NCBI RefSeq assembly: GCF_918797505.1
Contig: NC_092797.1
Coordinates: forward strand, 24,565,372 to 24,629,371
DNA: 64,000 nt
Source of the DNA: Bemisia tabaci
Taxonomy: Eukaryota > Arthropoda > Insecta > Hemiptera > Aleyrodidae
Reading direction: 5' to 3'
Position 1 is the first letter of the stretch; each line of letters begins with the position of its first letter. The notes beneath the pieces are model-generated. The model saw only the letters and a program-made list of their open reading frames with translations, was not told where the DNA came from and did no database searches. The translations under genes and the position numbers were made by a program. Shown piece by piece: positions 32,318-59,235 of the stretch.

Positions 32318-34849
32318 GAACCGAGCCAGGAATTGTAGTTCCTAAGTGCATAATGTAGTCCATTCGTCAGTAGCTCTAAACACGAACCGGCGTTTATGCT
32401 TACCATATCTTTCATCGTCAATTCTAAAAATTTCCACTCTGGATCTCGTTAATTATCCGCACCGTCGCATCTCGTTCGAGTCGCATCCTCCAGATAGGTA
32501 ACCTCCTTTGATGTAATTTTTCTGTTTACCCGTCCTCCGAGTTTAATAGCGGCCACTTTGGGAAAGGGAAACTCTTGTTGCTCCAAAGATTCCCAGAGTT
32601 CAAGGGCTCCTGTATTTACTCACCGGAAGAGCTGTTTGCTCTGCAATTGTTGCTCCCGTCTCATCTCCCGACGGAGGCATGTTCCGCTACGCCAAACAAA
32701 AAGCGCGTCTCTAGACCAGCTTTCTATCGCAGTTAGGAGGTTTTTTCTCCGGCGGGATAGAGCAGTTGTGTGTACTTGGACAACTCAGAGCGAGGTACAT
32801 GGATACAGTGGCCATGTTTCGGGACCCGAAGTTTCGTCCGGGAGGGAGGAGGTTTCACTCTCGTCAGCGGCGCTCCGACCGCATCTTCATTAGGGTGCGC
32901 CCGGCGCGCGGTGAAATTCGCATCCCCCCATCGCATGCTACCCCTGCAGCCGAGCCGCCCTGCAACCCTCCCGGCAGCAACTTTCACTTGCTTCCAATAT
33001 TTCGAGCTTTCCCCGCCGCCTCCCGTCAAAGCTCAGGGGTCCAGGTTCAAGCGTGCCGCTGTTGCCGCCTCCATCGGAAGTTCCGCCCCCATGCCTACGA
33101 AGGTAGAAAACATTTAAGGGATGGACGTTTGAGAGATCACCATCTTACAACCAATGTTGAGAAATTGCTCAATTAAAAAAACCAATTGTATCAGAAGTTG
33201 CATCCGCTGCTGTTTTGTCTCGAATTCGTCGAGAAACGATTTGTGAACGTGTTGGTCGATTCCTTCCTTAAAAATAGAGTTCGGAAAGGAGAGAAACAGA
33301 GGAGATAGCAAAGAGGAAGCGCAACTGATTTCTTTCATTTCAAACTTGACTAAAAAGCACGGAACTGAACTTGCTCTCTTGGGCCGTGAAAATGTGCTTT
33401 CTTTCTCTTGCGCGATTTCTGGGCATGAAACATTTCCCTAAATTTGCAAGCTAAGGCAAAATCATCCCGAGTCCCCAAAAACTGCACTATTCAAAAAGTT
33501 GCCCCTGAAGCCGAAAATCCTCGATAAATATCCATTTTCCTTACAAAATATATACTTCCAAGATATTCATAAAACTGTGTACGTGTTATGATAAGATTTA
33601 AAGTCTGATAATCTAGTGAAGCTCTCACTTCAATTTGTGCAACTTTACTTACTGCAAAATCTGTTTGTAAACTTTCTACGACCCTTCAAAGTTATTTGAA
33701 GGATGCTCTATGTATGCGAATAATTCCGCGGTTTACCGTCTTGTTCTCCTTCACTTCGAAAAATAGGCAAAAGCAGCTCCTACGTGTCAAAATAGTTGTA
33801 TCATAATTGTCTGAGCTTTTTTTCTGTACACTTGTAGGGATGAAATCAGGAACGTAGACGTAGCCTGAAGTTTGACTGTGCAAAAGTTCTCCCAATAGTA
33901 GGGCATCTAATTATAGTTTTCAAACAGTATTTTACATTTTTATCGATGAACCTTTTCAAAGTTTCAAAATTTCACTAATTTAAGTTTTATTTTATATTTG
34001 TATTCTTGGTTTGATAAACAATATACTCTCTTTAAATACAGCGACCTCAGTCAGAAACAATACAGCTCGTCGGCAAAATTTTCTGAAAAATTTTGCTGAG
34101 TAATCAGGATAGTATTTAACTTATCTTGACTCTACATTAATTTACAATGTCCTTTGATTTTCAAAGAAAATAGTAATCGTCCCTTTCGAAGAGTGTTGTA
34201 GTTTTTCGAAGGGGAGACGAGGGGGATGTTGTTGCTACCCTAGGGTAATTAGGAAACGGAACGTATTCATGCAACTAGGCAGCGTTGTTGCCGAGAGGGT
34301 GAGCGATGAAAGATGAGGATGGCCACAAGTGGAGAGTTTTCCTCTTGACTATTGATCAATTTTGACTCGGAACGCGAGTGAAGTGCATTCTTGCCCTGTT
34401 TCTGTATCCGACTCGACTAACTCCCAGAGTCATCGCACTCCTGCGCCCCGGTGGGGTTTCCCGCTTTCCAGCCTCGTTCGCTTTTTTGTCGAGCCCTAGC
34501 ACTTTCCCCGATGCTGACTTCTCTGGGGGGTGGCTCGACCCCTATTCTCAAGAGTCCAACTTTCAATTATTATTTCAGCAGTTATGACCGAAATGAAAAT
34601 ACTATTCTGGACTTTCCTGGCATTAAAAGTAATGGATTACAGTTGAACTGTCAATTCAATGAATCTTTTTTATGTATGCAGAGCACTAGGGCGCTTTGCG
34701 ACACCCAACCGCCACTACAAGCGTATAATCCGAACGTTTTGCTTACCACCAAACACGCAATTTGGCCTGGAGCGGCGCGGCGCAGAGAGCGATGATGACG
34801 AGGACTTGAAATGGAAAGGAGGCGCTCAGTCAGCATGAAAGACATATTA
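32318..34849. other. Intergenic with GC-rich patch
   Basis: No supported gene. 32740-33110 is CpG-rich, with overlapping frames up to 136 codons on both strands. None shows a recognisable domain, and all follow the base composition. Confidence 0.45.
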
Positions 34850-35085
34850 GCGCCTACAAGACTCCATGAATACTTCACGCATTTCGTCAAACGTAGTGCG
34901 GTCAGCAGCGGTTGGCATGAAACTCATAGTGCCTACAAGACTGCATGAATACTTCACGCATTGCGTCAAAAACAGTGCGGTCGACAGCGGTCGGCGTGAA
35001 ACGCATAGCGCCTACAAGACAACAGGGATACTTCACGCATTGCGCAAAACACAGTGCGGTTGGCGCAGTGGCGGAAATTAAAATC
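34850..35085. repeat. 79-bp tandem array, 3 units
   Basis: G(C/T)GCCTACAAGAC starts units at 34850, 34929 and 35008, each followed by ATACTTCACGCATT and AGTGCGGT. The spacing is exactly 79 bp. The third unit is slightly shorter at its end. Units touch with no spacers, so this is not a CRISPR-like layout. Confidence 0.85.
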
Positions 35086-35740
35086 ATTGAACCACATTAA
35101 TGTTTATTCTTTCATAATGTTTTCGATCTTTTCTTATAAATGGAAGGTCTTATCCACACAGAGATAGGTTTACGGAACTTAATTTTCGCGTAAAGTTCCG
35201 TGAACTTTTGCTAGTGTTGACAGGGTTTTCACAAAAATGTGCCCAACACGAGTAAGCGCGTCTTATGCACCCCTCCTCCTCCGGCACGTTCATTTGATGG
35301 TTTGTATCGATGTTCCAAAACGAATGAGAAGGGGCGGCAAAATACAGGCGACCCATGGGCAGCAAGTAGGTAAATCCGGCCCTGATAAACAGGGTGTTCG
35401 CAGCGAACACACCTTAATAATCGATTTTTTACCACAGCTTCAAATAGGGGAATATCGATAGATCGCAAAGCACGCCACGCCACTGCTGGTTCGGTCATTC
35501 TCTGTATTTCATGACATTTTATTCCTGATTTTTTGGCCTCGCACTTCTGCTCTCTTCGCATGCCGCAATGGAAATTCAAAGATCATAACCACTCGCGAGG
35601 TTTGAGTTTTGAATTGTTCTAATTTTTTTCTCTTCAGGACTCTCTCCCGAAAAAATAAAGCTTTGAGCGTCAGAAATAGGCGAAGAGGGCGTTAGTTTGC
35701 AAAGACCAAGGAGTTACTAATCTCTCGCAGGATATGTTGA
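35086..35740. other. Flank of the palindrome, no gene
   Basis: No supported gene. 35240-35480 carries overlapping frames on both strands (up to 116 codons) and looks more like old dispersed repeat than coding sequence, but I have no second copy to prove it. Confidence 0.4.
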
Positions 35741-36609
35741 CATAGTGATGTTTCGTCGGAAATGACTCCAATTTTCTCGCTTTAAAGGTGCTTTCATTTT
35801 TTGCAAAAAAGGCAATTTTCGCCGTCCCAGCGGAATCCAGCTCATAAAAATTATTGTACTCGTCAAATTTTGGAGAAAACTTGATGTAAAAAAGTTGGCG
35901 TATCGTCTCACTTTGATTAGACAACGGAACTGAAAATCGTTCATGACGGAGGGTGCTCGTAGAGAAAAATCTGGATTTAAAAGGTGCCGTCATAGCTGGC
36001 TGTCTTGAATCTCAACCTATCCGTGATAAACTTAGGGGGGTCGGCTTATCACATTATTTACCGAGGTAGAGGCTAGGTCCGCCTCGGCCAACTAAAACCG
36101 CGTTACTGCTCAGAGCTTCCCATTTGAGTTACGCGTTTTCAGCGACCCAGGGCCGAGGTGTTCCGGAGAGCCTCGCCGGAACCTCTTCCGGTGTTGGCGA
36201 CACTAAGCGCGTCGCACGTGAACGCTTCATCACGCTAACGAGCGAACCCAGCACGACACCCCGCGAGTCCTGGAACTTCTAAAGTTTGGTCTTCCACGGC
36301 TAAGTTTAGATCTACGACTCGTAAATGAACAGCGTCGAGTTTATTAGCATCCGAGCCTTGAGCCTCCTGCCCGATAAGAGCGCACCGTTATCCGGGCTCG
36401 TGCAAATGGGGGTATTCTATCCCTCGACGCTGCGGCCGTCAAAATGATGGCATAATGTGTGGTGGTAACCTTTAATTCAAACGGCGAAACGATAAGGTGA
36501 ACGGGAACGGCTTCGCAAGAGTGACGAGCCTGTAGCGCCAATTACGAGTGTGCCGCGGCCCAATCCCCTGCTTTTCAGCGTTTCTAGATCTGCAAGAAGC
36601 ATTACCAAT

Positions 36610-37218
36610 TTCTTCCTCTCCCATTTTCTCTTCTAATTCTTCTTCTTCCTCCTCTTCCTCCTCCTCTCCTTTTCTCCTTTTTTTTCTTCTTCTTCTTCCT
36701 CTTCCTCTTCTATTTCACTTCTACCTTCCTCCCCCTTCTCCTCCTCCTCTTCTTTTTCTTCTTTTTCTTCTTCTTCTTCTCTTCTTCCTCTTCCATTTCA
36801 CTTCTACCTTCCTCCTCCTCCTCCTCTTCTTTTTCTTCTTCCTATAATTATTCTTCTTTCTCTTCTACATCTTCCTCCTCCTCTTCTCCTTCTTCTTCCT
36901 CTCCCATTTCCTCTTCTACCCTCCTCCTCCTCCTCTTCTTTTGCTTCTTCTTCTTCCTATTATTATTCTTCTTTCTCTTCTACTTTATCTTCCTCCTCCT
37001 ACTCCTCCTCCTCTTCTTCCTCCTCCTCCTCATCCTCCTCCTCTTTTTCTTCTTCCTCTCTCATTTCCTCTCCTACCTTCCTCCTCCTTCTCCTCTTCTT
37101 CTTCTTCTTCCTCTCCCATTTCCTCTCCCACCTTCCTCCTCCTCCTCTTCTTCTCCTTCTTCCTATTATTATTCTTCCTCCTCTTCTTCTTGTGCTTCTC
37201 GTTCTGGTTTCTTCCTCA
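36610..37218. repeat. 600-bp polypyrimidine tract (left arm)
   Basis: The top strand is almost pure C/T built from TTC, TCC and CTCCTT blocks, with rare A or G. Such tracts can form triplex (H-DNA) and slip easily. It is the only place where the two palindrome arms differ in length: an 8-versus-7 T run near 36678-36685, offset by one base near 36780. Serine-, leucine- and phenylalanine-rich frames here are artefacts of composition. Confidence 0.95.
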
Positions 37219-40200
37219 CAGTGTACTTTCGGAAGTAAAAGCTCAGATTTGCCTCATGATGATTGATGACCAAGGAGATCAGCAATTATTGGAACCGAAT
37301 TAATTTTCGAAAACTTAATAACCGGCAAAGTGCTCACCCTGCCGCGCCATTTATCAGTCACCATTAGGTAAATCATATTCGATTTTTTGTTCAAAAAGTT
37401 GCCATCAACCATCACTAAGCAAAAATAAGCTTTTATCCCCGAATGCAATTTTTGCCTCACTCGATTACTCCGCTTAGATTTACATGCTTCACTTTTTTGT
37501 CTTCCCGATGACTTTTTGATTACTGCGATGCGCATTTCGGATCCCTCGCTTAATATATCTTCAGGCCCTCTCTTCATTATTGCGTTATTTACGCACGTCG
37601 TGCATGAGTTTACGAAACTATACGTACAAAATCATCGGGAACCCACAAAAAAGTCAAGCGAGCACATCAATGCACCCCGATAAAATGCAAACCAAAAATC
37701 TAATCCCTTAGATTTTGTGTTCAGGATTTCTAAAATATATTATCTCTAGCTCTAGCGTCATGTTCAGAATTTACCCACGATTTGACATCAGCGCGTTTAC
37801 ATAGCACGTGAATGAGTTTAAAATTATGTTCCCTGGAGTTCGCACCCGTGTAATCTAGGGCCTTTTTCAAACGGCCTCACCAACACGACGAAGCGAAGGG
37901 ACGGCCGCAGTCAAAGCCGAGACCTATAGGCCGGCGATTCACCGCCAGCCCGATTCTCTGATTGAGCCTGACTTATCGATTTCAATCAATTACTTCCCGC
38001 CTCCATTGCCTCTCACCTTGCCTCAATAAGCTTCTCCATCGCCTCCCCGCCTCCTTCGACCACGGGTTTCAATCGTGGCAATTCTATCATCTCGGCCAAT
38101 AAACCAACCTCCAGATCAGTCTAGATACTGCCGCGTTTTCATTTTACTAATAAATTGACCTGCAAACTACTATTCCAGGAGGAAATGTACGTGACTTCCT
38201 GTCGTTTGCGGTAATGGCATCAAAAAAATCAGTATAATGTCATGGGTATAACGTCGGCAAAGGTATACACTAAAAAATTGACCTTGAAATCAAGTTGACA
38301 TGGGACTAAAAATGGCTGCAAGCTGACAGTATATCAGTATATACGTGTTTCGAGAAATGCGGATAGAATCCACCCGAATTATGATTATTTATTCGATTGA
38401 ACTTCATTTCCTCATTCGAGAAACAGCGTATGTGCCGCTCATTTCCCCGTGTAGATAGGTGCTATGACTGATGAACCAAAAATAGTAGTTTTTATGTGCA
38501 AAATCTAGTTCAATATTATTATACCTCGGGTTGATTCCATCCGACTCTCGCTCAAATCAAGTAGGGAGACCATCTCCTTGTGGCCGTATTTAATCCGATG
38601 TCTACTTCATTCAAATGTACATTTTTTGAACATAATTGCGAGCAGTTGTGTACATCTTTATAATGATGTCAATGGAGGTTTTTAAGTTGTATTCTAATCC
38701 AACGGCGTTAAGCCCTGAACGTGGCACATAAACCCTGACTTTTTTTTAAACAAAATTAAAGTTTTTGAGCTAGTAATCCTCAGATTCTGAATTTTCTAAT
38801 GCGACATTTGCGGGTGTTTTTTTCGCCAAAAATGTCTCTTATAAGTTATGATAATTTCTCAATTTCGAGTTTTTTGGCGTTCAGGTCCTTTTTCACACCT
38901 AAATACACATATGCTTTACTCAAGACTTTTTAAGTGGCGTGAATCGGCAGAATCGAGGAAGATATTGAAATGGAGGCATGGCTTAACAAATGGAAATTTG
39001 AAAAAAAAACGGACCTCTGTCATGCGTGATAGCAAAAACACTATCGTCGAATGCATATAGAAACAGCTGTAGCTGTGAGGCATCAGGGGGTGTCATCTTG
39101 TCATTTGTCGGATATCGGATATCTGTCGGTTGCCCCATTAGATGCAGTCAGTCAAACTAACGCCCTCCTCTCCGCTGCGTATCGTACGCGTGGGGTTATT
39201 GCGATAGTTGCCACCCTTGTGAGACGGATAGGATCGAGCAGCCACGACATGACACGTCAGAAAAACATTTGTACCCATTAAATGCTATTTTGACCCCGAT
39301 ATCGGTCTTGACTTCGTCATGAGGGAAGACGCACCGTAGAATTGTAGAAGAGGGTGGAAGAATGTAACTGAGCAAGAAAGAGAGGTCGATCGGGTATATC
39401 TTTGAATCTTCGACATTTTAGTGGATTGCAGCAAACCCTTGTCTGTCTCGCTGTTTCTTCACCCCTAAATCTGATGTGAAGGATCTCAGGAATTGGTATA
39501 ATCGTGCTCCTTGTTTCGTAATTAATAAATTATTCATCAATCGTTATCTTAAAATATTATAAACCTTTTAAGAGCATCAACATATCAATCCATTTCTTTT
39601 CGTAGTATAGCTCGGTTCCCTCAGGTTTTATTACGTCTATTTTCAGTTTGAAGGAATGACGAGAATATTATTCCCTGCGTTAGGATTACCAATCAACGAT
39701 TTCAATTTTGAAAAAGGAAAAGAAAAAATCTTGTTAGTGTTTTTATCTACGTCTGTATTTGTTACTTTCTTTCCTGCGTATAAATATACAAAAATGGATA
39801 TCGACTAGCGAGACAGGTGTGCTGTATATTATAACATCAGAAAATATATGTACAAACGTCTATGCCTATCTGCCCCCTAATTGAATACGCGGCGATACTG
39901 TATTTGGACCGCGTGAGGCAAAAAGGAACCAAGCCATATCAGGTATCGCCAAATTCAATTGCGCACTTTAATTTTTTACATGAAAACGGTTGTGCGGATT
40001 TTTGTGCAAATTTCAGTGAATCTTCTGCATAGTACTAAGCGAATTTTCTATAATTTTCAAAGGAATCTGCTCAAATGTTCTCTATAACCTTAAATTGCTT
40101 CGTTAAATTTTGCAATAGCTGACGTGGATTGCGATTCCTTCTACTGACCGCGTGGCGCGGAAACGATTAATTTTGCAACAGCAGATAGTTTGATTCATCG

Positions 40201-40372
40201 GACATCGCGGGCGTTTCGGGAACGTAGGACCATGCATCTACCTACGCAAATTTTATCTCGAACGCGTAAATCCTCGGGTATCAATAACAAAGACACACCA
40301 GCGACAAGTGCAGCACTGCAATCGGGAATGATAGCTCCATCCAACCGGCCCGACGCGTTTTCGCAGCCGCCG

Positions 40373-40604
40373 CACAGTGGATCGAGTCGATAAGAGAGGT
40401 CGGACAAACTTTAGAAACTTTAAACGCTCATAACTCCGTAAATACAAAACTTTGAAGTTCTTAAAGTGATTCCATTGGTTTTCTCGTGAAATTTTCTTCT
40501 CAAAACACCCCTTGAAATATAAAATGTGACGTAATAAACATCAAAATTTGCAATTTGTGTTAAAATTTCATGTTCGACCTCTCTAATTGACTCGATCCAC
40601 TGTG
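40373..40604. mobile_element. Transib-type MITE (left arm)
   Basis: The 232-bp element starts CACAGTGGATCGAGTCGATA and ends with the complement, TAATTGACTCGATCCACTGTG without its first base; the inverted ends match at about 31 of 34 positions. CGCCG is duplicated exactly on both sides (40368-40372 and 40605-40609). Transib elements are known for CACWATG-like ends resembling the RAG signal heptamer CACAGTG and for 5-bp GC-rich duplications of the form CGNCG; both are visible. It has no coding capacity, so it would depend on a transposase elsewhere. Relatives: the mirror copy at 49108-49339, the spacer copy ending at 45036, and a solo end at 55246. Confidence 0.85.
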
Positions 40605-41025
40605 CGCCGTGGCATTTCTTTCGTCCGCGGCCCGCTTTATATCTAAATCATACATCATTTTTCAATTAATCTCGGGACATAAACCGGTGGTCGGTGTTTT
40701 ACGCAGGGACAGTCGCCTCCATCAATTGATAATGAATGCATAATGAGGTTTGCAGGCGCCCATGCCAGACTTGTTCGGATAAAATCCCCCATCCTGAGCT
40801 TGGAAGATGCAGGTTCGAGCCCCCCGCACCCCACATCGGGGGAACGAATGTTTCACGGTATCAGCGCAATATCTCATTCTAGTTTTCTCGGATGTGGTGT
40901 CAATAATTAGGTGTGGTTAGATGACAATGATTACGCAGCTGAATATTTTAAGTGTGAGACGGTTTAATATGCTTATCGAAGGTTGAGGGGAGTTAGGGGA
41001 TCAAATACTTATATAATATTGCTTT

Positions 41026-41221
41026 CTCTGGAAAAAAGTCTCTTGGATCCGGAGTCCAGACTCTTAGAAAATTCGACAAGAAAAACATACTCTTGACTCA
41101 CGCGGATTTCTGCTTGAATTCCCTTCTTGGATTCCCTCATTTACATTCTAGCATAGAGTATTTTTTCTTGTCAAATTTTCTAGAGTCTAGACTCTGGATC
41201 CAAAAGAATCTTTTTCCAGTG
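41026..41221. mobile_element. Foldback MITE, CACTGGAAAAAA family (left arm)
   Basis: CTCTGGAAAAAAGTCTCTTG, then GATCCGGAGTCCAGACTCTT, at the left pairs with AGAGTCTAGACTCTGGATCC, then AAAAGAATCTTTTTCCAGTG, at the right. GACAAGAAAAA and TTTTTCTTGTC lie inside. Inverted arms of about 75 bp surround a loop of about 50 bp. Non-coding. Confidence 0.8.
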
Positions 41222-41487
41222 TCGAATGGTTCAACGAAAGTTCTTCTCAAGGTATTACATCGGCAGATTTGATCCATTTATTTAGAATGACCCCATCCCA
41301 TCTCCCTCGCCTAAAGTTTAAGAAACTATGGTGAAAATAAGGCGAACAAATAAAAGGCGGGTAAAGTAACGAGGGAGACTCAATTTCGGAAATCTGTGCG
41401 TAACGGCAAAGACGGCAGACAGCTTCATCGTTTTCGATACGTCAAACGGATAAGATTGTATCGATATCGATTGGTTCAACATGTAGC

Positions 41488-41761
41488 CAGGGTGTTTGCA
41501 AGTCCGGAATTAGTACTGATTTTTTAAGGGCGGTCCGGAAGCACTGAAAAAGTGCGGAAATTCCAAAAAAAGGTCCGGAATTTTTTTTATCATTTTTGTT
41601 GCTATTTCAAATTTTTGAAATTTTTCGAATTTCGTGAAATGGAGGTACTGAAAAAGTACGGAATTTTTCTGTTGGAGGAGGTACTGAATTTCTCGAGAAT
41701 GTACTGAAAAAGCACTGTAAAAGTACTTATTTTTGACCAGCCTGTTCTAGTAGACACCCTG
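41488..41761. mobile_element. CAGGGTGT element, hAT-like ends (left arm)
   Basis: The 274-bp element starts CAGGGTGTTTGCAAGTCCGG and ends TCTAGTAGACACCCTG. The ends are inverted over about 8 bp and fit hAT-type CAGGG termini. Inside are repeated TACTGAAAAAGTACGGAA-type words. The 8-bp flanks do not match, so a target duplication is not supported. A truncated relative is at 1934. Confidence 0.65.
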
Positions 41762-44110
41762 ATAGCCTCAAAAGTCAATTAAGTATTCTGAGGGAACATA
41801 GATTTTTTATTCTTACGAGAATAAAACGGCAATGAAAAGTGAAATTGTTAGGAATTTTTACATTTATAGCTTTCCTACTTAAATCCAAAAATTTTCGTTT
41901 GAGGTTTTGTTATATTGTTTTGAACCAAACGATACATCGAACCACTATCGAATACGATCTACTTCTAATGTGTATCTCCGTTGCCCGGAGTTTTTCTCGC
42001 CCCAGCTCAAACCCTTGGTATGGGGTGCGGGTTCGTATCCTGGCGGAAGTGCAAATCGCCGCCGCCAACGTGCGCGTATAGAAGTTGGAGTCAAGCGCGC
42101 CCGGGCGGGCGGGCGGTGCAAGAGAGATGGATATCTCGCACGTCGTTATCCATCTGTGACGTCGACGTCGCGTCGTCGTGTCGTTTTCGAGTCAATGGAC
42201 GGCGGCGCTCGCTCCGAACATGAGTGACACGGGCCGAACAGCTGGTTTCCAGTGGGTGACACTGATTTGTGGCTTTCGCCCGACGTCAACTTTATCCGTG
42301 ACGCCGACTGTCCATCACTAATCTTCGTGTTCGGCACCGTTATACGTCACGCGTCACCCTAACTCAACGTCGAATCGTGTTTGCCGGCTTGCAGTGCCTA
42401 CCTTGGCGAGGGTTTTCCGTGTATGTTTTGCGACCAATGTTAAAAGGGCCCCAATCAGGTGAAACAGAGGATTTACAAAGTTTCTACCGTCCGCAAAACC
42501 TGGACAATATATCAGGAAATTTGATATCATCAGGAAAAAACAGGAACATATCAGAAAAATTGGTCCTAGATCAGGCAATTCTGAAGGCGTTAAGTATATA
42601 GAATACAGCGCATTCGATAGTGAAACATTTGATCCAATTCATGAATATTTGTATGTTGGCTTCCAAAATCAAATGAGTGTCAATGTGTTCCGCGTCAAAA
42701 ATCAGGAAATTTCATTAAAATATCAGGACAATATCAGGAAAATCCAAAAGGAAATTTTGGTAGCTGCCCTGTTTTAGAAATGTGAGGGAAAAAAAGCCAG
42801 ATGATTAAATTCAGGGGAAAAATGTGTTCACGGAAATGAAAAATTGTTGCGTTCTATCACATACTTCAGCCTTCCTCTCAGACGCCGGATTGAAGAAACT
42901 TGAAATTCTGCATCTCGTGCTGCCTCGAAAGCAGGAATGGCTTCTCTGCTATCAAATGCCTCGACTTTCTTGCAATTTTTTTAACATTTCCTTTTTTTAA
43001 AAAAAAAATGTATCTTTGTCAAAAATTGTTTAACCATGCCTGTTGGTATGCATTATAAAATATATCTTTACTATCGAATTGAGCTAGTATTACACAACTC
43101 TTTATACTCTCGAATAATTCAATCAAGAAAGCATTTGGTAACCGGAGGGCGAGCATGTACTGTTGTTGTTTTAGGAGTGATTCAGGGCTTTGGGGGTCCT
43201 TCGAAAGCCCAGGAGGGCTTATTTTCAAACATATCACATTACGCTGCAAAAAGTCTCTGAAGCCTCGCGACGGAGGCGTTGTAACGCGATTAGAAATTAA
43301 TGACTGCTAAATCGTATTCACCTGCAGGGGGCTCGTCCGTAAATTGAGGGTCATACGTGGGGATCAAGGGTGGCGGCAAGCGGGCGGGGAGGGGAAAGCC
43401 CCTTCAAAGATTAAAGAACATTGCCAAGTTTCCAGGTTTACAAAAATGAATGTGCAAAGGAGCGGATTCAAAATGAGCCATCGAGTCGGAAAGATGAATG
43501 AAAAACACTATTATATGGTTTCTCGTTTTTTTTTCATCAAGGTGTCATGTAATAGGGGAAGGGTCTAGCTGAATTTTTGGCTGAAATCGAGGATTGCAAT
43601 CGAATACAATTCATTCGAGGATTTTGAGGACAAAAATCCTGATCGTTATGAGAGCCGTAAACGGAGCATGTAGGATCGTGTAAAAAAAAGTCACTAAAAT
43701 TTACAATAGTTAACCAAAATGGAAAGAAAAAACACAGATAAAATAGGCAGCCAAGGCTGAAGCTAAGATCTGAAAGTTATGTATAAAGGCCTGTTATGTT
43801 TCGGGACTCTAACAACTCCATTTTCAATCGGGAAAGAAGAAATTTAAAAAAAAAAAAATAATAATAATAAACCCGCTAATATCACAGTTTTGTGGTGAAC
43901 ATAAAAACCTATCAGTGAATAATACAGAACTTTCCATCAAAATTACCAAATGTTGTATAACTAGGCAATAGATCCATTGTCCCAATTGAATTTAAAATCA
44001 CAGTCAATATTTTTTGGTTATCTGCAGATACCTTTGAAGTTATTGTATGGAACAAATGTCCGGTATTCTGCACCAAAATTACCTTCGTTGTACTTCTTTT
44101 CAGTATATTA

Positions 44111-44370
44111 CCCGGAGAAAAAACGTTCATATATGACTTATGTGGCACTAAATTTATCAGTCTAGCTAACTGAAGTTTTCAGTAACGATACTCAGTTCAG
44201 GTAACCGAAGTCTTTGTTAGCAGTGCACGGACTTTTTTTGCGAAAGACTTCGTTGCTCTGAAATTATATTCGGTTTCTAGAGCTCAAAACTTCGGTTATC
44301 TAAACCGAAACCTTTACTTTCTCTCACGAGTCGAAGTTTAGTCCTTGTAACCGAAGTTTTTTTCTCAGTG
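44111..44370. mobile_element. TTCGG-rich hairpin element at inner edge (left arm)
   Basis: It runs from CCCGGAGAAAAAACGTTCAT to GTAACCGAAGTTTTTTTCTC, then AGTG. The body alternates ACCGAAG and CTTCGGTT words. It belongs to the CACGGAG/CACTGAG group and ends 34 bp before the inner edge of the palindrome arm. Confidence 0.6.
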
Positions 44371-44404
44371 AGAGCACCCAACTTCAACGTGGCAAGTCTG
44401 TCGG

Positions 44405-45036
44405 AAACTAATAGTAGTTTCTTCGTGAAATTTTCTTCAAAAAGCACCCCTTGAAGTTTAAAATGTGACGAGATAAAAATAAAAATTTGCAGTTTTTGTC
44501 AAAAATTTCGTGTCCGACCTCCCTGATGGAGATGTTAGATGCGTGAGGAATTTGCGATTTGACTGTTGATTCCTATGTTGAAGTTCGCGAGAAACACGAT
44601 GGTGCCACTGGTTTTCTCTGAAATCAACTTTCAAGCTTAAAAAAAGCTCTCAAGTTGAGGGCAAAATGAAGGGGATACCCCACGCTATCCTGAGAGTCCA
44701 CCTGTACATCAAGACAATCCTCTCCATGCAAAGATAGTTGACAGAGCTGCCACTTTATTTGGGGACTCCAAAACTGAAAACACGGCATCACTGCTTATGT
44801 ATTTGCTCCCTATCTTGCATGGAGAATTCGTCTTGATGTAGAGGTGGACTCTCAGGATAGCGTGGGATATTCCCTCCATTTTGGCCTCAACTTGAGAGCT
44901 TTTTTTGAGCTTGGGAGTTGATTTCAGAGAAAACCAGTGGCACCATCGTATTTTTCGCGAACTATTACAAAAGAATCACCAGTCAAATCGCAAATTCCTC
45001 ACACATGCAACATCTCCATTGACTCGATCCACTGTG
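44405..45036. mobile_element. Truncated Transib-family element at palindrome centre
   Basis: 44420-44525 matches 40480-40590 of the arm element (CGTGAAATTTTCTTC, CACCCCTTGAA, AAAATGTGACG, CCGACCTC). The right terminus is TTGACTCGATCCACTGTG, followed by CGACG, which fits the CGNCG target rule. The left terminus and first 100 bp or so are missing, cut off near the inner edge of the left arm. A hairpin unit (44526-45019) sits just inside the right terminus. Confidence 0.78.
44526..45019. repeat. 494-bp hairpin nested in the central element
   Basis: ATGGAGATG at 44526 pairs with CATCTCCAT ending at 45019, and the pairing runs inward for about 210 bp with small mismatches. Examples are CACGCTATCCTGAGAGTCCA at 44681 with its complement ending at 44864, and CCATGCAAAGATAG with CTATCTTGCATGG. 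The loop is about 70 bp. Its axis (about 44,772) differs from that of the giant palindrome. Confidence 0.88.
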
Positions 45037-45341
45037 CGACGGTTAACGCCTACAAGTGCGAGCTCTGAATTTATCGGCGCGACTGCTGCCGCGAAGAGCA
45101 CGGGGCAGGTACGTTACGATAATGGACGAAATTGCATCTAATTTACTCCTCCCTAATTGACTATTTAAGTACTACGGCGTCCAATTAATGGAGAGGTCTC
45201 TGGGAAAATTACCCTAATATCTACAAATAGTCGACCCTCCTTCCAATTCCACTAATTTTTTACGATAACTTCCATACGGATGTCCCGCGTTAACCCCTTA
45301 CCAACCACCGACAGACTTGCCACGTTGAAGTTGGGTGCTCT

Positions 45342-45601
45342 CACTGAGAAAAAAACTTCGGTTACAAGGACTAAACTTCGACTCGTGAGAGAAAGTAAAG
45401 GTTTCGGTTTAGATAACCGAAGTTTTGAGCTCTAGAAACCGAATATAATTTCAGAGCAACGAAGTCTTTCGCAAAAAAAGTCCGTGCACTGCTAACAAAG
45501 ACTTCGGTTACCTGAACTGAGTATCGTTACTGAAAACTTCAGTTAGCTAGACTGATAAATTTAGTGCCACATAAGTCATATATGAACGTTTTTTCTCCGG
45601 G
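45342..45601. mobile_element. TTCGG-rich hairpin element (right arm)
   Basis: Mirror copy of the element at 44111-44370, starting CACTGAGAAAAAAACTTCGG. Confidence 0.6.
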
Positions 45602-47950
45602 TAATATACTGAAAAGAAGTACAACGAAGGTAATTTTGGTGCAGAATACCGGACATTTGTTCCATACAATAACTTCAAAGGTATCTGCAGATAACCAAAA
45701 AATATTGACTGTGATTTTAAATTCAATTGGGACAATGGATCTATTGCCTAGTTATACAACATTTGGTAATTTTGATGGAAAGTTCTGTATTATTCACTGA
45801 TAGGTTTTTATGTTCACCACAAAACTGTGATATTAGCGGGTTTATTATTATTATTTTTTTTTTTTTAAATTTCTTCTTTCCCGATTGAAAATGGAGTTGT
45901 TAGAGTCCCGAAACATAACAGGCCTTTATACATAACTTTCAGATCTTAGCTTCAGCCTTGGCTGCCTATTTTATCTGTGTTTTTTCTTTCCATTTTGGTT
46001 AACTATTGTAAATTTTAGTGACTTTTTTTTACACGATCCTACATGCTCCGTTTACGGCTCTCATAACGATCAGGATTTTTGTCCTCAAAATCCTCGAATG
46101 AATTGTATTCGATTGCAATCCTCGATTTCAGCCAAAAATTCAGCTAGACCCTTCCCCTATTACATGACACCTTGATGAAAAAAAAACGAGAAACCATATA
46201 ATAGTGTTTTTCATTCATCTTTCCGACTCGATGGCTCATTTTGAATCCGCTCCTTTGCACATTCATTTTTGTAAACCTGGAAACTTGGCAATGTTCTTTA
46301 ATCTTTGAAGGGGCTTTCCCCTCCCCGCCCGCTTGCCGCCACCCTTGATCCCCACGTATGACCCTCAATTTACGGACGAGCCCCCTGCAGGTGAATACGA
46401 TTTAGCAGTCATTAATTTCTAATCGCGTTACAACGCCTCCGTCGCGAGGCTTCAGAGACTTTTTGCAGCGTAATGTGATATGTTTGAAAATAAGCCCTCC
46501 TGGGCTTTCGAAGGACCCCCAAAGCCCTGAATCACTCCTAAAACAACAACAGTACATGCTCGCCCTCCGGTTACCAAATGCTTTCTTGATTGAATTATTC
46601 GAGAGTATAAAGAGTTGTGTAATACTAGCTCAATTCGATAGTAAAGATATATTTTATAATGCATACCAACAGGCATGGTTAAACAATTTTTGACAAAGAT
46701 ACATTTTTTTTTTAAAAAAAGGAAATGTTAAAAAAATTGCAAGAAAGTCGAGGCATTTGATAGCAGAGAAGCCATTCCTGCTTTCGAGGCAGCACGAGAT
46801 GCAGAATTTCAAGTTTCTTCAATCCGGCGTCTGAGAGGAAGGCTGAAGTATGTGATAGAACGCAACAATTTTTCATTTCCGTGAACACATTTTTCCCCTG
46901 AATTTAATCATCTGGCTTTTTTTCCCTCACATTTCTAAAACAGGGCAGCTACCAAAATTTCCTTTTGGATTTTCCTGATATTGTCCTGATATTTTAATGA
47001 AATTTCCTGATTTTTGACGCGGAACACATTGACACTCATTTGATTTTGGAAGCCAACATACAAATATTCATGAATTGGATCAAATGTTTCACTATCGAAT
47101 GCGCTGTATTCTATATACTTAACGCCTTCAGAATTGCCTGATCTAGGACCAATTTTTCTGATATGTTCCTGTTTTTTCCTGATGATATCAAATTTCCTGA
47201 TATATTGTCCAGGTTTTGCGGACGGTAGAAACTTTGTAAATCCTCTGTTTCACCTGATTGGGGCCCTTTTAACATTGGTCGCAAAACATACACGGAAAAC
47301 CCTCGCCAAGGTAGGCACTGCAAGCCGGCAAACACGATTCGACGTTGAGTTAGGGTGACGCGTGACGTATAACGGTGCCGAACACGAAGATTAGTGATGG
47401 ACAGTCGGCGTCACGGATAAAGTTGACGTCGGGCGAAAGCCACAAATCAGTGTCACCCACTGGAAACCAGCTGTTCGGCCCGTGTCACTCATGTTCGGAG
47501 CGAGCGCCGCCGTCCATTGACTCGAAAACGACACGACGACGCGACGTCGACGTCACAGATGGATAACGACGTGCGAGATATCCATCTCTCTTGCACCGCC
47601 CGCCCGCCCGGGCGCGCTTGACTCCAACTTCTATACGCGCACGTTGGCGGCGGCGATTTGCACTTCCGCCAGGATACGAACCCGCACCCCATACCAAGGG
47701 TTTGAGCTGGGGCGAGAAAAACTCCGGGCAACGGAGATACACATTAGAAGTAGATCGTATTCGATAGTGGTTCGATGTATCGTTTGGTTCAAAACAATAT
47801 AACAAAACCTCAAACGAAAATTTTTGGATTTAAGTAGGAAAGCTATAAATGTAAAAATTCCTAACAATTTCACTTTTCATTGCCGTTTTATTCTCGTAAG
47901 AATAAAAAATCTATGTTCCCTCAGAATACTTAATTGACTTTTGAGGCTAT

Positions 47951-48224
47951 CAGGGTGTCTACTAGAACAGGCTGGTCAAAAATAAGTACTTTTACAGTGC
48001 TTTTTCAGTACATTCTCGAGAAATTCAGTACCTCCTCCAACAGAAAAATTCCGTACTTTTTCAGTACCTCCATTTCACGAAATTCGAAAAATTTCAAAAA
48101 TTTGAAATAGCAACAAAAATGATAAAAAAAATTCCGGACCTTTTTTTGGAATTTCCGCACTTTTTCAGTGCTTCCGGACCGCCCTTAAAAAATCAGTACT
48201 AATTCCGGACTTGCAAACACCCTG
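47951..48224. mobile_element. CAGGGTGT element (right arm)
   Basis: Mirror copy of 41488-41761, starting CAGGGTGTCTACTAGAACAG. Confidence 0.65.
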
Positions 48225-48490
48225 GCTACATGTTGAACCAATCGATATCGATACAATCTTATCCGTTTGACGTATCGAAAACGATGAAGCTGTCTGCCGT
48301 CTTTGCCGTTACGCACAGATTTCCGAAATTGAGTCTCCCTCGTTACTTTACCCGCCTTTTATTTGTTCGCCTTATTTTCACCATAGTTTCTTAAACTTTA
48401 GGCGAGGGAGATGGGATGGGGTCATTCTAAATAAATGGATCAAATCTGCCGATGTAATACCTTGAGAAGAACTTTCGTTGAACCATTCGA

Positions 48491-48686
48491 CACTGGAAAA
48501 AGATTCTTTTGGATCCAGAGTCTAGACTCTAGAAAATTTGACAAGAAAAAATACTCTATGCTAGAATGTAAATGAGGGAATCCAAGAAGGGAATTCAAGC
48601 AGAAATCCGCGTGAGTCAAGAGTATGTTTTTCTTGTCGAATTTTCTAAGAGTCTGGACTCCGGATCCAAGAGACTTTTTTCCAGAG
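48491..48686. mobile_element. Foldback MITE, CACTGGAAAAAA family (right arm)
   Basis: Mirror copy of 41026-41221, starting CACTGGAAAAAGATTCTTTT. Confidence 0.8.
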
Positions 48687-49107
48687 AAAGCAATATTATA
48701 TAAGTATTTGATCCCCTAACTCCCCTCAACCTTCGATAAGCATATTAAACCGTCTCACACTTAAAATATTCAGCTGCGTAATCATTGTCATCTAACCACA
48801 CCTAATTATTGACACCACATCCGAGAAAACTAGAATGAGATATTGCGCTGATACCGTGAAACATTCGTTCCCCCGATGTGGGGTGCGGGGGGCTCGAACC
48901 TGCATCTTCCAAGCTCAGGATGGGGGATTTTATCCGAACAAGTCTGGCATGGGCGCCTGCAAACCTCATTATGCATTCATTATCAATTGATGGAGGCGAC
49001 TGTCCCTGCGTAAAACACCGACCACCGGTTTATGTCCCGAGATTAATTGAAAAATGATGTATGATTTAGATATAAAGCGGGCCGCGGACGAAAGAAATGC
49101 CACGGCG

Positions 49108-49339
49108 CACAGTGGATCGAGTCAATTAGAGAGGTCGAACATGAAATTTTAACACAAATTGCAAATTTTGATGTTTATTACGTCACATTTTATATTTCAA
49201 GGGGTGTTTTGAGAAGAAAATTTCACGAGAAAACCAATGGAATCACTTTAAGAACTTCAAAGTTTTGTATTTACGGAGTTATGAGCGTTTAAAGTTTCTA
49301 AAGTTTGTCCGACCTCTCTTATCGACTCGATCCACTGTG
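49108..49339. mobile_element. Transib-type MITE (right arm)
   Basis: Mirror copy of 40373-40604. It starts CACAGTGGATCGAGTCAATT and has CGGCG on both sides (49103-49107 and 49340-49344), the complement of the CGCCG duplication in the left arm. Confidence 0.85.
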
Positions 49340-52300
49340 CGGCGGCTGCGAAAACGCGTCGGGCCGGTTGGATGGAGCTATCATTCCCGATTGCAGTGCT
49401 GCACTTGTCGCTGGTGTGTCTTTGTTATTGATACCCGAGGATTTACGCGTTCGAGATAAAATTTGCGTAGGTAGATGCATGGTCCTACGTTCCCGAAACG
49501 CCCGCGATGTCCGATGAATCAAACTATCTGCTGTTGCAAAATTAATCGTTTCCGCGCCACGCGGTCAGTAGAAGGAATCGCAATCCACGTCAGCTATTGC
49601 AAAATTTAACGAAGCAATTTAAGGTTATAGAGAACATTTGAGCGGATTCCTTTGAAAATTATAGAAAATTCGCTTAGTACTATGCAGAAGATTCACTGAA
49701 ATTTGCACAAAAATCCGCACAACCGTTTTCATGTAAAAAATTAAAGTGCGCAATTGAATTTGGCGATACCTGATATGGCTTGGTTCCTTTTTGCCTCACG
49801 CGGTCCAAATACAGTATCGCCGCGTATTCAATTAGGGGGCAGATAGGCATAGACGTTTGTACATATATTTTCTGATGTTATAATATACAGCACACCTGTC
49901 TCGCTAGTCGATATCCATTTTTGTATATTTATACGCAGGAAAGAAAGTAACAAATACAGACGTAGATAAAAACACTAACAAGATTTTTTCTTTTCCTTTT
50001 TCAAAATTGAAATCGTTGATTGGTAATCCTAACGCAGGGAATAATATTCTCGTCATTCCTTCAAACTGAAAATAGACGTAATAAAACCTGAGGGAACCGA
50101 GCTATACTACGAAAAGAAATGGATTGATATGTTGATGCTCTTAAAAGGTTTATAATATTTTAAGATAACGATTGATGAATAATTTATTAATTACGAAACA
50201 AGGAGCACGATTATACCAATTCCTGAGATCCTTCACATCAGATTTAGGGGTGAAGAAACAGCGAGACAGACAAGGGTTTGCTGCAATCCACTAAAATGTC
50301 GAAGATTCAAAGATATACCCGATCGACCTCTCTTTCTTGCTCAGTTACATTCTTCCACCCTCTTCTACAATTCTACGGTGCGTCTTCCCTCATGACGAAG
50401 TCAAGACCGATATCGGGGTCAAAATAGCATTTAATGGGTACAAATGTTTTTCTGACGTGTCATGTCGTGGCTGCTCGATCCTATCCGTCTCACAAGGGTG
50501 GCAACTATCGCAATAACCCCACGCGTACGATACGCAGCGGAGAGGAGGGCGTTAGTTTGACTGACTGCATCTAATGGGGCAACCGACAGATATCCGATAT
50601 CCGACAAATGACAAGATGACACCCCCTGATGCCTCACAGCTACAGCTGTTTCTATATGCATTCGACGATAGTGTTTTTGCTATCACGCATGACAGAGGTC
50701 CGTTTTTTTTTCAAATTTCCATTTGTTAAGCCATGCCTCCATTTCAATATCTTCCTCGATTCTGCCGATTCACGCCACTTAAAAAGTCTTGAGTAAAGCA
50801 TATGTGTATTTAGGTGTGAAAAAGGACCTGAACGCCAAAAAACTCGAAATTGAGAAATTATCATAACTTATAAGAGACATTTTTGGCGAAAAAAACACCC
50901 GCAAATGTCGCATTAGAAAATTCAGAATCTGAGGATTACTAGCTCAAAAACTTTAATTTTGTTGAAAAAAAAGTCAGGGTTTATGTGCCACGTTCAGGGC
51001 TTAACGCCGTTGGATTAGAATACAACTTAAAAACCTCCATTGACATCATTATAAAGATGTACACAACTGCTCGCAATTATGTTCAAAAAATGTACATTTG
51101 AATGAAGTAGACATCGGATTAAATACGGCCACAAGGAGATGGTCTCCCTACTTGATTTGAGCGAGAGTCGGATGGAATCAACCCGAGGTATAATAATATT
51201 GAACTAGATTTTGCACATAAAAACTACTATTTTTGGTTCATCAGTCATAGCACCTATCTACACGGGGAAATGAGCGGCACATACGCTGTTTCTCGAATGA
51301 GGAAATGAAGTTCAATCGAATAAATAATCATAATTCGGGTGGATTCTATCCGCATTTCTCGAAACACGTATATACTGATATACTGTCAGCTTGCAGCCAT
51401 TTTTAGTCCCATGTCAACTTGATTTCAAGGTCAATTTTTTAGTGTATACCTTTGCCGACGTTATACCCATGACATTATACTGATTTTTTTGATGCCATTA
51501 CCGCAAACGACAGGAAGTCACGTACATTTCCTCCTGGAATAGTAGTTTGCAGGTCAATTTATTAGTAAAATGAAAACGCGGCAGTATCTAGACTGATCTG
51601 GAGGTTGGTTTATTGGCCGAGATGATAGAATTGCCACGATTGAAACCCGTGGTCGAAGGAGGCGGGGAGGCGATGGAGAAGCTTATTGAGGCAAGGTGAG
51701 AGGCAATGGAGGCGGGAAGTAATTGATTGAAATCGATAAGTCAGGCTCAATCAGAGAATCGGGCTGGCGGTGAATCGCCGGCCTATAGGTCTCGGCTTTG
51801 ACTGCGGCCGTCCCTTCGCTTCGTCGTGTTGGTGAGGCCGTTTGAAAAAGGCCCTAGATTACACGGGTGCGAACTCCAGGGAACATAATTTTAAACTCAT
51901 TCACGTGCTATGTAAACGCGCTGATGTCAAATTGTGGGTAAATTCTGAACATGACGCTAGAGCTAGAGATAATATATTTTAGAAATCCTGAACACAAAAT
52001 CTAAGGGATTAGATTTTTGGTTTGCATTTTATCGGGGTGCATTGATGTGCTCGCTTGACTTTTTTGTGGGTTCCCGATGATTTTGTACGTATAGTTTCGT
52101 AAACTCATGCACGACGTGCGTAAATAACGCAATAATGAAGAGAGGGCCTGAAGATATATTAAGCGAGGGATCCGAAATGCGCATCGCAGTAATCAAAAAG
52201 TCATCGGGAAGACAAAAAAGTGAAGCATGTAAATCTAAGCGGAGTAATCGAGTGAGGCAAAAATTGCATTCGGGGATAAAAGCTTATTTTTGCTTAGTGA

Positions 52301-52493
52301 TGGTTGATGGCAACTTTTTGAACAAAAAATCGAATATGATTTACCTAATGGTGACTGATAAATGGCGCGGCAGGGTGAGCACTTTGCCGGTTATTAAGTT
52401 TTCGAAAATTAATTCGGTTCCAATAATTGCTGATCTCCTTGGTCATCAATCATCATGAGGCAAATCTGAGCTTTTACTTCCGAAAGTACACTG

Positions 52494-53102
52494 TGAGGAA
52501 GAAACCAGAACGAGAAGCACAAGAAGAAGAGGAGGAAGAATAATAATAGGAAGAAGGAGAAGAAGAGGAGGAGGAGGAAGGTGGGAGAGGAAATGGGAGA
52601 GGAAGAAGAAGAAGAAGAGGAGAAGGAGGAGGAAGGTAGGAGAGGAAATGAGAGAGGAAGAAGAAAAAGAGGAGGAGGATGAGGAGGAGGAGGAAGAAGA
52701 GGAGGAGGAGTAGGAGGAGGAAGATAAAGTAGAAGAGAAAGAAGAATAATAATAGGAAGAAGAAGAAGCAAAAGAAGAGGAGGAGGAGGAGGGTAGAAGA
52801 GGAAATGGGAGAGGAAGAAGAAGGAGAAGAGGAGGAGGAAGATGTAGAAGAGAAAGAAGAATAATTATAGGAAGAAGAAAAAGAAGAGGAGGAGGAGGAG
52901 GAAGGTAGAAGTGAAATGGAAGAGGAAGAGGAAGAAGAAGAAGAAGAAAAAGAAGAAAAAGAAGAGGAGGAGGAGAAGGGGGAGGAAGGTAGAAGTGAAA
53001 TAGAAGAGGAAGAGGAAGAAGAAGAAGAAAAAAAGGAGAAAAGGAGAGGAGGAGGAAGAGGAGGAAGAAGAAGAATTAGAAGAGAAAATGGGAGAGGAAG
53101 AA
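52494..53102. repeat. 600-bp polypurine tract (right arm)
   Basis: Mirror of the left-arm pyrimidine tract, here A/G-rich on the top strand (GAAGAAGAGGAGGAGG-type). It differs from the left copy by one base in an A-run near 53030 and one compensating base near 52932. Confidence 0.95.
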
Positions 53103-53971
53103 ATTGGTAATGCTTCTTGCAGATCTAGAAACGCTGAAAAGCAGGGGATTGGGCCGCGGCACACTCGTAATTGGCGCTACAGGCTCGTCACTCTTGCGAA
53201 GCCGTTCCCGTTCACCTTATCGTTTCGCCGTTTGAATTAAAGGTTACCACCACACATTATGCCATCATTTTGACGGCCGCAGCGTCGAGGGATAGAATAC
53301 CCCCATTTGCACGAGCCCGGATAACGGTGCGCTCTTATCGGGCAGGAGGCTCAAGGCTCGGATGCTAATAAACTCGACGCTGTTCATTTACGAGTCGTAG
53401 ATCTAAACTTAGCCGTGGAAGACCAAACTTTAGAAGTTCCAGGACTCGCGGGGTGTCGTGCTGGGTTCGCTCGTTAGCGTGATGAAGCGTTCACGTGCGA
53501 CGCGCTTAGTGTCGCCAACACCGGAAGAGGTTCCGGCGAGGCTCTCCGGAACACCTCGGCCCTGGGTCGCTGAAAACGCGTAACTCAAATGGGAAGCTCT
53601 GAGCAGTAACGCGGTTTTAGTTGGCCGAGGCGGACCTAGCCTCTACCTCGGTAAATAATGTGATAAGCCGACCCCCCTAAGTTTATCACGGATAGGTTGA
53701 GATTCAAGACAGCCAGCTATGACGGCACTTTTTGAATCCAGATTTTTCTCTACGAGCACCCTCCGTCATGAACGATTTTCAGTTCCGTTGTCTAATCAAA
53801 GTGAGACGATACGCCAACTTTTTTACATCAAGTTTTCTCCAAAATTTGACGAGTACAATAATTTTTATGAGCTGGATTCCGCTGGGACGGCGAAAATTGC
53901 CTTTTTTGCAAAAAATGAAAGCACCTTTAAAGCGAGAAAATTGGAGTCATTTCCGACGAAACATCACTATG

Positions 53972-55245
53972 GATCCCTCTCCACCCGCCGTTCACCATCG
54001 AGGAAATACCGTGTTCTGAGAAATATATTTTCAGCCTCCTCAGGTGACAAGCGTGGCGAATTAGTTTTCAATTTTACCAGTTCGCCCCGCAGAACAAAGG
54101 GAGAACTGTCTCCGTGCGAATTACCACGTGGTATGATCAAATAACATATAATCCAGTTTGATCCAAACGGCCCAAGTTTTCCGAGTTCATTAACAACTAA
54201 AACAATTGGAGGGAGACCGTTGTTGCGTTCAGTGGGTAGTAGGATTTACTCTTTTTCCCTCCGCCCCTCCCCGCTTCATTCGTCTTCTAAGTGCTTTCTT
54301 CCCCGAAAAAACTCCCGTTGCCCTCCCTGGTGTCGGATTTTAAAAGGTGGGTGATCGATCCACTTTCGAGCGATGAGAGATATTTTAGATTTGGTTCAGT
54401 CTTGCCACCCTGTTCGTCTACTTTTTGAACTCTTCGTTGAGAGGATTAAATGGAGAGCAGATGAGAGGGGTGTGGTAAAGGTAAGGTGCTAATTACTCTC
54501 TTCTCTCTTCCATTTTACTGTTTCGTCCTAGGGATTTCTCTCCCTCATCGCTCTTTCCTCTTTCCTATCTCTAACTTAAAACAGAAACTGAAGCTTTTCT
54601 GTTACTCTTCATAATTTGGCATATCTACTTCCCCGATTTACTGAAGAAGAAATTCAGAGATTTCTACACGTATTCTGACTTCAATGTCATGATAATTTCT
54701 TTCAGATAAAATTGTGTCCTCCATTTTGTTCAGCGTTGATGTCAAAAACACGTATAGTTTCGCTTTGCACACAAACCAAAGTTTGGGAAACTTGGGAAAT
54801 ACAGGAATGTGCATGCGCGCGCAGCTTCAGAACTTACCTATGTCCTTCAGTCCATTACTTTCACAGTTCGAAGCAGCTCAGGTGAGAAGTCGTTTTGCTA
54901 GACCCTGGACGAACTCATTAGGAAGAATTCATTTGATTATCTCATTTTATTTTTATTTTCCTTTGTATCTAACTTATTATGTGCGTAACCCATTGATTAA
55001 ATCAGACACAGGCTGAGGAAAAAGCATGGAAATGAGCTCCCTGTACTATCTCCGGAAAATACTACGGCGAGGAGCGATAAGCACCGACAGGTAGCGACCT
55101 ACTAGGACACGTCTGATCGCACCCCTCGATCTGAAGCTAAAAAGCATAATAATTAAGTAACATATACGCCCCTCTCCTCACTCTAGGTGTACAGTTGGCT
55201 ACCAAGACGCAGTCTGGCCCATTGAATTTAACGAGTGTGTAACGA
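53972..55245. other. Right flank of palindrome, no gene
   Basis: No supported gene or repeat. A 100-codon frame at 54714-55016 is not recognised. Confidence 0.45.
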
Positions 55246-55340
55246 CACAATGGATCGACTCGATGAGAGAAGTCAGACAAAATTTGGAAACTTTAAACGC
55301 TCGTTTATACTAAACTTTGAAGTTCTAAAAGTGGCTTTTT
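55246..55340. repeat. Solo Transib-family left end
   Basis: CACAATGGATCGACTCGATG, then AGAGAAGTCAGACAA and GAAACTTTAAACGCTCG, match the left ~95 bp of the 40373 element. CACAATGG agrees even better with the CACWATG Transib heptamer. The sequence then diverges and no right end was found. Confidence 0.7.
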
Positions 55341-58198: not shown

Positions 58199-59235
58199 CG
58201 TTTAAGCAAAAAAAAAAAAAAAAAAAAAATTCCGTCGAGATTCTGGAACGCAAAGGCGCTTTAAAAGTATTCTGGGGCTATACTAGCTAAATCACCGGTA
58301 GTAAATCCGTTATATTATTAAAAAGAAATTGACTCCATAGTTTAATTCCTTAGTTTCTTGAATACGATTATTTTAAGCACTTAAACATTTATACCACCAA
58401 TTTTAGCCATGGGGTGATTTCCTGAGAGCCGATAATATCACGAATTTCTCATAGAACCCTTCAACAGTGGCTTGCTTTTTTGGCAGCCGATTCCGCCATC
58501 GAACCGGAGTTTAAATGGAAGCTGATAATAACCCAAAGCTCTGAGAAAAATTTTGAGGTGAGTATAAGAACGGTTTGTTGTAAGTAACGAGGAGAGGCGG
58601 GCAAAGCGGCTAAAATCCGATCTAATTTTTACAGTTTTTCTGTTGAATTAATGTTGCCGCGGGCTTCTGACTGTGTCCACACATAGTTTCTGTTCAGCAT
58701 ATCGATACATAAGTATTTACTACATACGTAGAATCTAATTTTCACGTCGGGGAGTCGACATATTTTGATTTTTTCGATTTTATACGGAAAATTGATGGTT
58801 TTTTCGGGATTGAAATTATTATTGTTTCATGAAAAATAAATGCACCCAAAATGACTATAGCATATTGATTTTTACACATTTGCACTCACGAAATTGGTTG
58901 GTAAATTCAACGAGTGGGTACATCGACCTGGTATATCAAGTTTCTGCAATTTTTTACGGCAAATCAGTAGATTTTCGGGATGTAGATTGCTTACTTCAAT
59001 TCATGAATGAATAAAGCAACGACATGGTTGAACTTCTTTGCATGGAAAGACGTTTGAAATAACAAAATCAAGACGTATTTAATGTAATAGCATTTATATC
59101 GAGTCAATTTCTTTTCAATAATATAACGGGATTTTTACTACCGGTGATTTGGGTATTTTAGCCCCAAAATACCTTTAAATCGACTTTATCTTCTAGGAGT
59201 TCGACAGAATTTTTCCTTTCTTCGCTTAAATTATT
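58199..59235. mobile_element. Inverted-repeat-bounded element, about 1 kb
   Basis: 58268-58342 (GGGGCTATACTAGCTAAATC, then ACCGGTAGTAAATCCGTTAT) pairs with 59099-59175 (CGAGTCAATTTCTTTTCAAT, ATAACGGGATTTTTACTACC, GGTGATTTGGG). Weaker pairing continues outward through GTCGAGATTCTGG / TCTAGGAGTTCGAC and TTTAAGC / GCTTAAA to the limits given. The inverted ends are about 110-140 bp, and the roughly 750-bp interior has no frame above 61 codons. No target duplication was found, so the boundaries are approximate. Confidence 0.6.

Follow-up and report, generated by a model that had tools for sequence, protein, structure and literature searches.

Long inverted repeats with nearly identical arms have been described in insects and primates, and the closest described structure that we found is the inverted-repeat module at the breakpoints of inversion 2Rj of Anopheles gambiae. 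As set out in PMC1952172, a pair of 14.6-kb modules lies at the inversion ends, with 5.3-kb inverted arms that are >99% or 100% identical and a 4-kb spacer. These modules have no coding capacity, contain degraded repeat remnants and are read by the authors of that report as low-copy repeats, not transposons. The same report quotes the definition of a segmental duplication as two blocks of >1 kb at 90–100% identity. For a breakpoint of Drosophila subobscura, an inverted duplication by a forward switch followed by backward copying has been proposed (PMC7584159), and the palindromes of the primate X chromosome have a raised G+C content, according to PMC8981503. Here, we analyse a 64,000-nucleotide stretch of the whitefly Bemisia tabaci (assembly GCF_918797505.1, contig NC_092797.1, positions 24,565,372 to 24,629,371 of the forward strand; hereafter, the window), which carries a giant, near-perfect palindrome composed of a left arm (A), a spacer (S) and a right arm (A'). 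The palindrome appears to be a further case of the type known from 2Rj, and we read it, with a probability of roughly 0.6, as a genuine inverted segmental duplication of recent origin, in surroundings that are poor in genes and rich in repeats.

RESULTS

Two nearly identical arms surround a short spacer

The arms pair from end to end by a single rule, in which position x of the left arm corresponds to position 89,712 - x of the right arm. Both this rule and the boundaries of the arms and spacer (Table 1), as put forward in an earlier sequence-only reading of the window, were reproduced exactly. A BLAST comparison of the two arms yielded 99.908% identity over 8,665 columns, with 6 mismatches, 2 gaps and E = 0, and the length of the match rules out chance as the origin of the similarity. 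The two inverted blocks, of 8,664 bp at 99.9% identity, thus lie within the size and identity limits of a segmental duplication. There is no N anywhere in the window.

When the arms are read without gaps, 65 mismatches appear, which are produced by length shifts in a pyrimidine tract. The gapped comparison shows five clear substitutions, at 35978, 35983, 37779, 38748 and 40068, where the earlier reading had counted four. In addition, one T/C difference and two compensating 1-bp length differences lie within positions 36678–36782 of the pyrimidine tract, the latter corresponding to the single pair of length changes that had been noticed before. Within the right-arm copy of this tract (52513–53083), an 84-bp higher-order unit was called.

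Every difference between the arms falls within their outer half, with a one-sided P of 0.031 when they are counted as five clusters, a test made post hoc. Transitions account for four of the five clear substitutions (P = 0.045 if one-third is expected), and at two of the substitutions a CpG occurs in just one of the arms, namely the left arm at 37779 and the right arm at 40068. This richness in transitions, together with the absence of a CpG once per arm, fits mutation in both arms, and not errors in one bad copy, although five events prove little.

The edges are sharp and the flanks are unrelated

The edges of the palindrome are sharp. No similarity was found past the arm edges, as comparisons of 600 and 100 bp on the outer side and of 300 and 100 bp on the inner side each scored inside the range of 200 shuffles, and the left and right flanks have nothing in common except short dispersed repeats, none of them longer than 253 bp. 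A search for a target-site duplication at the outer ends revealed only a 2-bp GA common to both, which is expected in 1 of 16 cases by chance, and the outer 60 bp, compared in direct orientation, also scored inside the shuffle range. Since the outer flanks are unrelated, a single fold-back cannot yield the contig, and two false joins would be needed if the structure were false. A tandem array of 79-bp units occupies 34848–35060 and ends ~680 bp before the left arm.

The spacer contains a strong fold-back element

From position 44417, the spacer carries the remaining 3' portion of a short element, whose inverted terminal repeats measure 39 bp and which has a relative at ~40368–40609 in the arm. 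This truncated element is interrupted by a nested fold-back element resembling a miniature inverted-repeat transposable element (MITE). Among the 15 local inverted repeats of the window (arms of at least 50 bp and a loop of at most 1 kb, with the right-arm mirror copy and the giant palindrome excluded), the fold-back element ranks second in strength, and its centre lies 83.5 bp from that of the giant palindrome. Folded as single-stranded DNA, the spacer reaches -249.6 kcal/mol, as compared to a shuffle mean of -93.1 (z = -30, 20 shuffles). A continuation of an element from the spacer into the arm was considered and is not significant, 137 of the 500 shuffles reaching its score. Numbered by the copy in the arm, the element of the spacer starts at ~40478, close to the point (~40468) at which a copy in the right flank (55246–55333) stops. 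These two pieces are either one copy split by a rearrangement or a coincidence of two truncated copies.

Table 1. Positions of the palindrome, its parts and its outer junctions within the window
Feature	Position	Strand	Remarks
Left arm (A)	35741..44404	+	8,664 bp; no recognisable gene; degraded short repeats inside
Pyrimidine tract	36629..37199 (mirror 52513-53083)	+	571 bp, 94% pyrimidine, left arm; sole site of arm length differences
Spacer (S)	44405..45307	.	903 bp; two ends unlike each other
5'-truncated short element with inverted terminal repeats	44417..45041	+	matched parts 44417-44530 and 45018-45041, with the fold-back element in between
Nested fold-back (MITE-like) element	44526..45019	.	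190-nt arms, 90% complementary
Right arm (A')	45308..53971	-	8,664 bp; reverse complement of A at 99.9%
Outer left junction	35740..35741	.	left flank unrelated to right flank; outer 600 bp score 18.5 against a shuffle mean of 17.5 and maximum of 28 (200 shuffles)
Outer right junction	53971..53972	.	no microhomology under the two ancestral orders that make this join new

The arms and flanks are poor in recognisable genes

The left arm and spacer, searched in six frames against Pfam, matched no family and no transposase, and a six-frame search at E 0.01 over 940 to ~45308 and 54000–63982 likewise gave no match. The right arm was covered as the mirror of the left. As a positive control, the same procedure, in which stops are read as X, was applied to three frames of positions 1–9990 of phage lambda and returned 16 families, of which 15 exceeded the curated cut-off. 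The recovery of the lambda genes means that the stop-to-X reading does not hide domains, while short exons could escape it. With that proviso, the claim of the sequence-only reading that the arms hold no recognisable gene is borne out at the level of Pfam. Searching the arm and spacer against Rfam at E 0.1 yielded no match.

The window has a G+C content of ~0.41 and a CpG observed/expected ratio of 1.13, and contains seven open reading frames (ORFs) of at least 120 amino acids, the longest being 146. Together with the many small fold-back elements described below, these values suggest eukaryotic DNA. When one ORF of the arm was compared with a protein collection, none of the 4 candidates matched. 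The 146-amino-acid ORF, at 21167–21604 in the left flank, has an identical entry in the protein collection, where the sole match was the window's own protein, listed with two contigs no longer than 1,781 bp; given this match, DNA of the same organism may occur in other assemblies. A match to a tRNA model at 12770–12836, outside the arms, scored 30.4 bits against a threshold of 29, and ARAGORN called no tRNA; perhaps this is a tRNA-derived short interspersed element. Short-pattern searches from the window found no homologous locus, as none of the 29 loci retrieved (24 + 5) had blastn similarity to it. No match was obtained in the phage collection, searched with 36000–38000 only, or in the E. 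coli genomes, searched with 35700–54000.

Short fold-back elements are numerous in the window. A second palindrome, at 25385–26224, spans 840 bp, is 96% self-complementary without a spacer and is the strongest local inverted repeat after the giant one; units like GTGGCGTTTGCGGAC recur close to both of its ends. A tandem array at 2036–2847 consists of ~6.3 copies of 117-bp units with 85% matches. The segments 4905–5319 and 29978–30393 form a direct repeat pair at 92.6% and are probably two copies of one dispersed element.

DISCUSSION

A probable recent inverted duplication

The evidence leans to a young structure: the edges are sharp, the G+C content of the arms does not clearly exceed that of the flanks, and the gene searches of the arms found none. 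Of the three options named in the sequence-only reading, a very young structure, gene conversion or an artefact, these features favour the first, and we retain the other two at lower weight. Most likely, the similarity of the arms reflects their young age, and we saw no function for the duplicate. With mutation rates of 1e-8 to 2.8e-9, the five substitutions would correspond to an age of ~29,000–104,000 generations, provided that they postdate the duplication. From the assembled sequence, we infer that the structure exists in the living insect.

A template switch is the most likely route to the arrangement. A polymerase copying through A and S would have stalled shortly beyond the fold-back element of S, switched to the opposite strand at position 44404, where A meets the spacer, and then copied backward over 8,664 bp to 35741, after which the copied end would have been joined to the present right flank. 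Such a stall, strand switch and backward copying would give an inverted copy of the sequence that had just been traversed. Everything from the landing point to the stall would come to lie between copy and template, which yields the order A-S-A', and the second joining to new sequence would leave an unrelated right flank. The switch itself, the role of the hairpin and the direction of copying are all part of this proposed model, and either arm could be the original. In favour of the model, a long hairpin-forming element lies in the spacer. The chance that a random point lies as near to one of the two strongest inverted repeats as the palindrome centre does is 0.006, and 0.045 for any of the 15, in a test that was devised post hoc, once the structure had been seen.

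Several observations weigh against the recent duplication and the route proposed for it. Under all four of the ancestral orders that we examined (a gain of A', a gain of A, an inversion of S that duplicated A, and the mirror of the last), microhomology at the new joins is 0, although a microhomology-driven event may still be compatible with this value, these orders being hypothetical. The nearness of the hairpin to the palindrome centre was noticed post hoc, and 14% of the 903-bp stretches of the window contain some whole local inverted repeat, and 0.7% contain one of the two strongest. The 121 bp to the left of the hairpin and the 288 bp to its right do not pair as reverse complements. A fold-back at the hairpin tip as the last step is thus excluded by spacer ends that are unlike each other, and the hairpin is not the turning point. 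Finally, the ORF that spans the outer right junction was compared with 18 candidates in the protein collection, none of which scored, although the 146-amino-acid ORF of the window did have its match there; this negative is weak, as such an ORF is not necessarily predicted by gene callers.

Artefact, conversion, transposon or inversion

An artefact of assembly or amplification is unlikely in our view, but has to be taken seriously. It would consist of a fold-back chimera at 45307/45308 with a second false join at 53971/53972, or of two loci joined across a dispersed repeat A. A missed-adapter fold-back read has no spacer, and its arms return into the same flank; the 903-bp spacer and the unrelated flanks contradict this origin. 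The earlier reading had already dismissed such a read on account of the spacer, and to that extent its argument stands. Amplification chimeras, on the other hand, leave a similar 'intervening deletion', so that the spacer alone leaves room for an artefact, and the unrelated outer flanks, which the earlier reading did not use, are the stronger argument against a single fold-back. In the data given in PMC1855051, 406 of 475 amplification chimeras were inverted, with intervening deletions, and the geometry of the join between S and A' follows this pattern. Palindromes can also be abundant in amplified material: in Arabidopsis, they occurred in 221,001 of 462,138 reads (47.8%) and 195,263 of 447,364 reads (43.6%) of amplified libraries, as compared to 4,714 of 940,162 reads (0.5%) of the unamplified control (PMC6218980). 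The arms differ at few positions, and the shifts in the pyrimidine tract resemble errors. However, a fold-back would return to the left flank, and the right flank is unrelated to it, so that two independent false joins are required. There are no Ns at any join, and the differences between the arms are rich in transitions, with a CpG missing once per arm. More than 70% of the joins of amplification chimeras carry 2–21 nt of complementarity, as reported in PMC1855051; the join here has none if the present right flank originally followed S. Two more specific artefacts were rejected. A GATC marks the outer right join and brings to mind a clone chimera formed by Sau3AI-type ligation, but GATC is absent where the arm itself continues on the left side. 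A two-haplotype mix-up of a simple inversion of A and S predicts the reverse complement of the spacer start before A', where it is absent.

The remaining explanations accept the structure as real. It is doubtful that this is an older palindrome on a sex chromosome or another poorly recombining chromosome, homogenised by gene conversion from arm to arm. The arm identity of >99% falls among the values given for palindromes of the primate X and Y chromosomes (PMC8981503, PMC3723533), and the absence of any difference from the inner half of the arm (P = 0.031, post hoc) is the sole hint of conversion; against this stand the sharp edges, the lack of any gene found in the arms for conversion to maintain, and the base composition, as the arm G+C of 0.416 is not clearly above the 0.405 (standard deviation 0.008) of the flanks, where 36 of 285 overlapping windows are equal or higher. 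We consider it highly improbable that the entire 18,231 bp are one giant fold-back transposon, which would explain the long inverted termini, the absence of detected coding capacity and the many small fold-back elements nearby. Fold-back transposons have tandem arrays at their tips and longer target-site duplications. Here, no tandem array reaches the palindrome tips, the ends share only the 2-bp GA in place of a duplication of several bp, and no second copy of the 18-kb unit exists within the window. Hardly any weight falls on a staggered-break inversion that would have inverted S and left a copy of A on either side of it. It would give the same order of parts in one event and has been proposed as a route to inverted duplications in flies (PMC7584159), but the 8.7-kb overhang is long against the 58 and 534 nt of the O7 model in that report, and no trace was seen of the ancestral joins that it predicts.

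Significance

If the recent duplication is real, it provides a long inverted repeat of very young age whose spacer is short; structures this large and symmetrical usually prove unstable. It could then be used to gauge how such structures originate beside hairpin-forming mobile elements, whether their spacers flip and whether conversion acts on gene-free arms. A bolder reading, which we regard as improbable, is that the palindrome marks a rearrangement breakpoint, with flanks from distant places, an inverted copy seeded by the fold-back MITE of the spacer and a spacer that may flip in the population, as another 2Rj-like case. If so, it was caught young enough, with five clear substitutions, for the event to be read. 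If the structure is false, it is a cautionary example of a double-join artefact.

Comparison with known systems

Replication-based amplification offers a partial parallel. In the inverted triplications of origin-dependent inverted-repeat amplification (ODIRA), as described in PMC10766186, a switch from the leading to the lagging template gives inverted copies, and the spacer is lengthened by later repair. However, these joins form at inverted repeats of ~5 nt that lie 40–80 nt apart, whereas the window palindrome has a 903-bp spacer and two copies only. The primate X palindromes, in the account of PMC8981503, share with it large arms of >99.9% identity around a spacer, but they are larger (median arm 37 kb), raised in G+C and long maintained, none of which is shown for the window palindrome. 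At the O7 breakpoint of D. subobscura, the AttA2 inverted repeat resembles it in that hairpin-forming repeats lie at or beside break junctions, and differs in that AttA2 carries a gene and its spacer is inverted in one chromosome type (PMC7584159). The 2Rj module of A. gambiae stands nearest, with long non-coding inverted arms >99% alike, degraded repeats, a spacer and, as described in PMC1952172, no transposon traits. The proportions differ, as the 2Rj arms are 5.3 kb long with a spacer of 4 kb, and those of the window palindrome 8.7 kb with a spacer of 0.9 kb. Furthermore, 2Rj has two modules that bound a 12.5-Mb inversion, together with putative target-site duplications (PMC1952172), whereas a single module is seen in the window.

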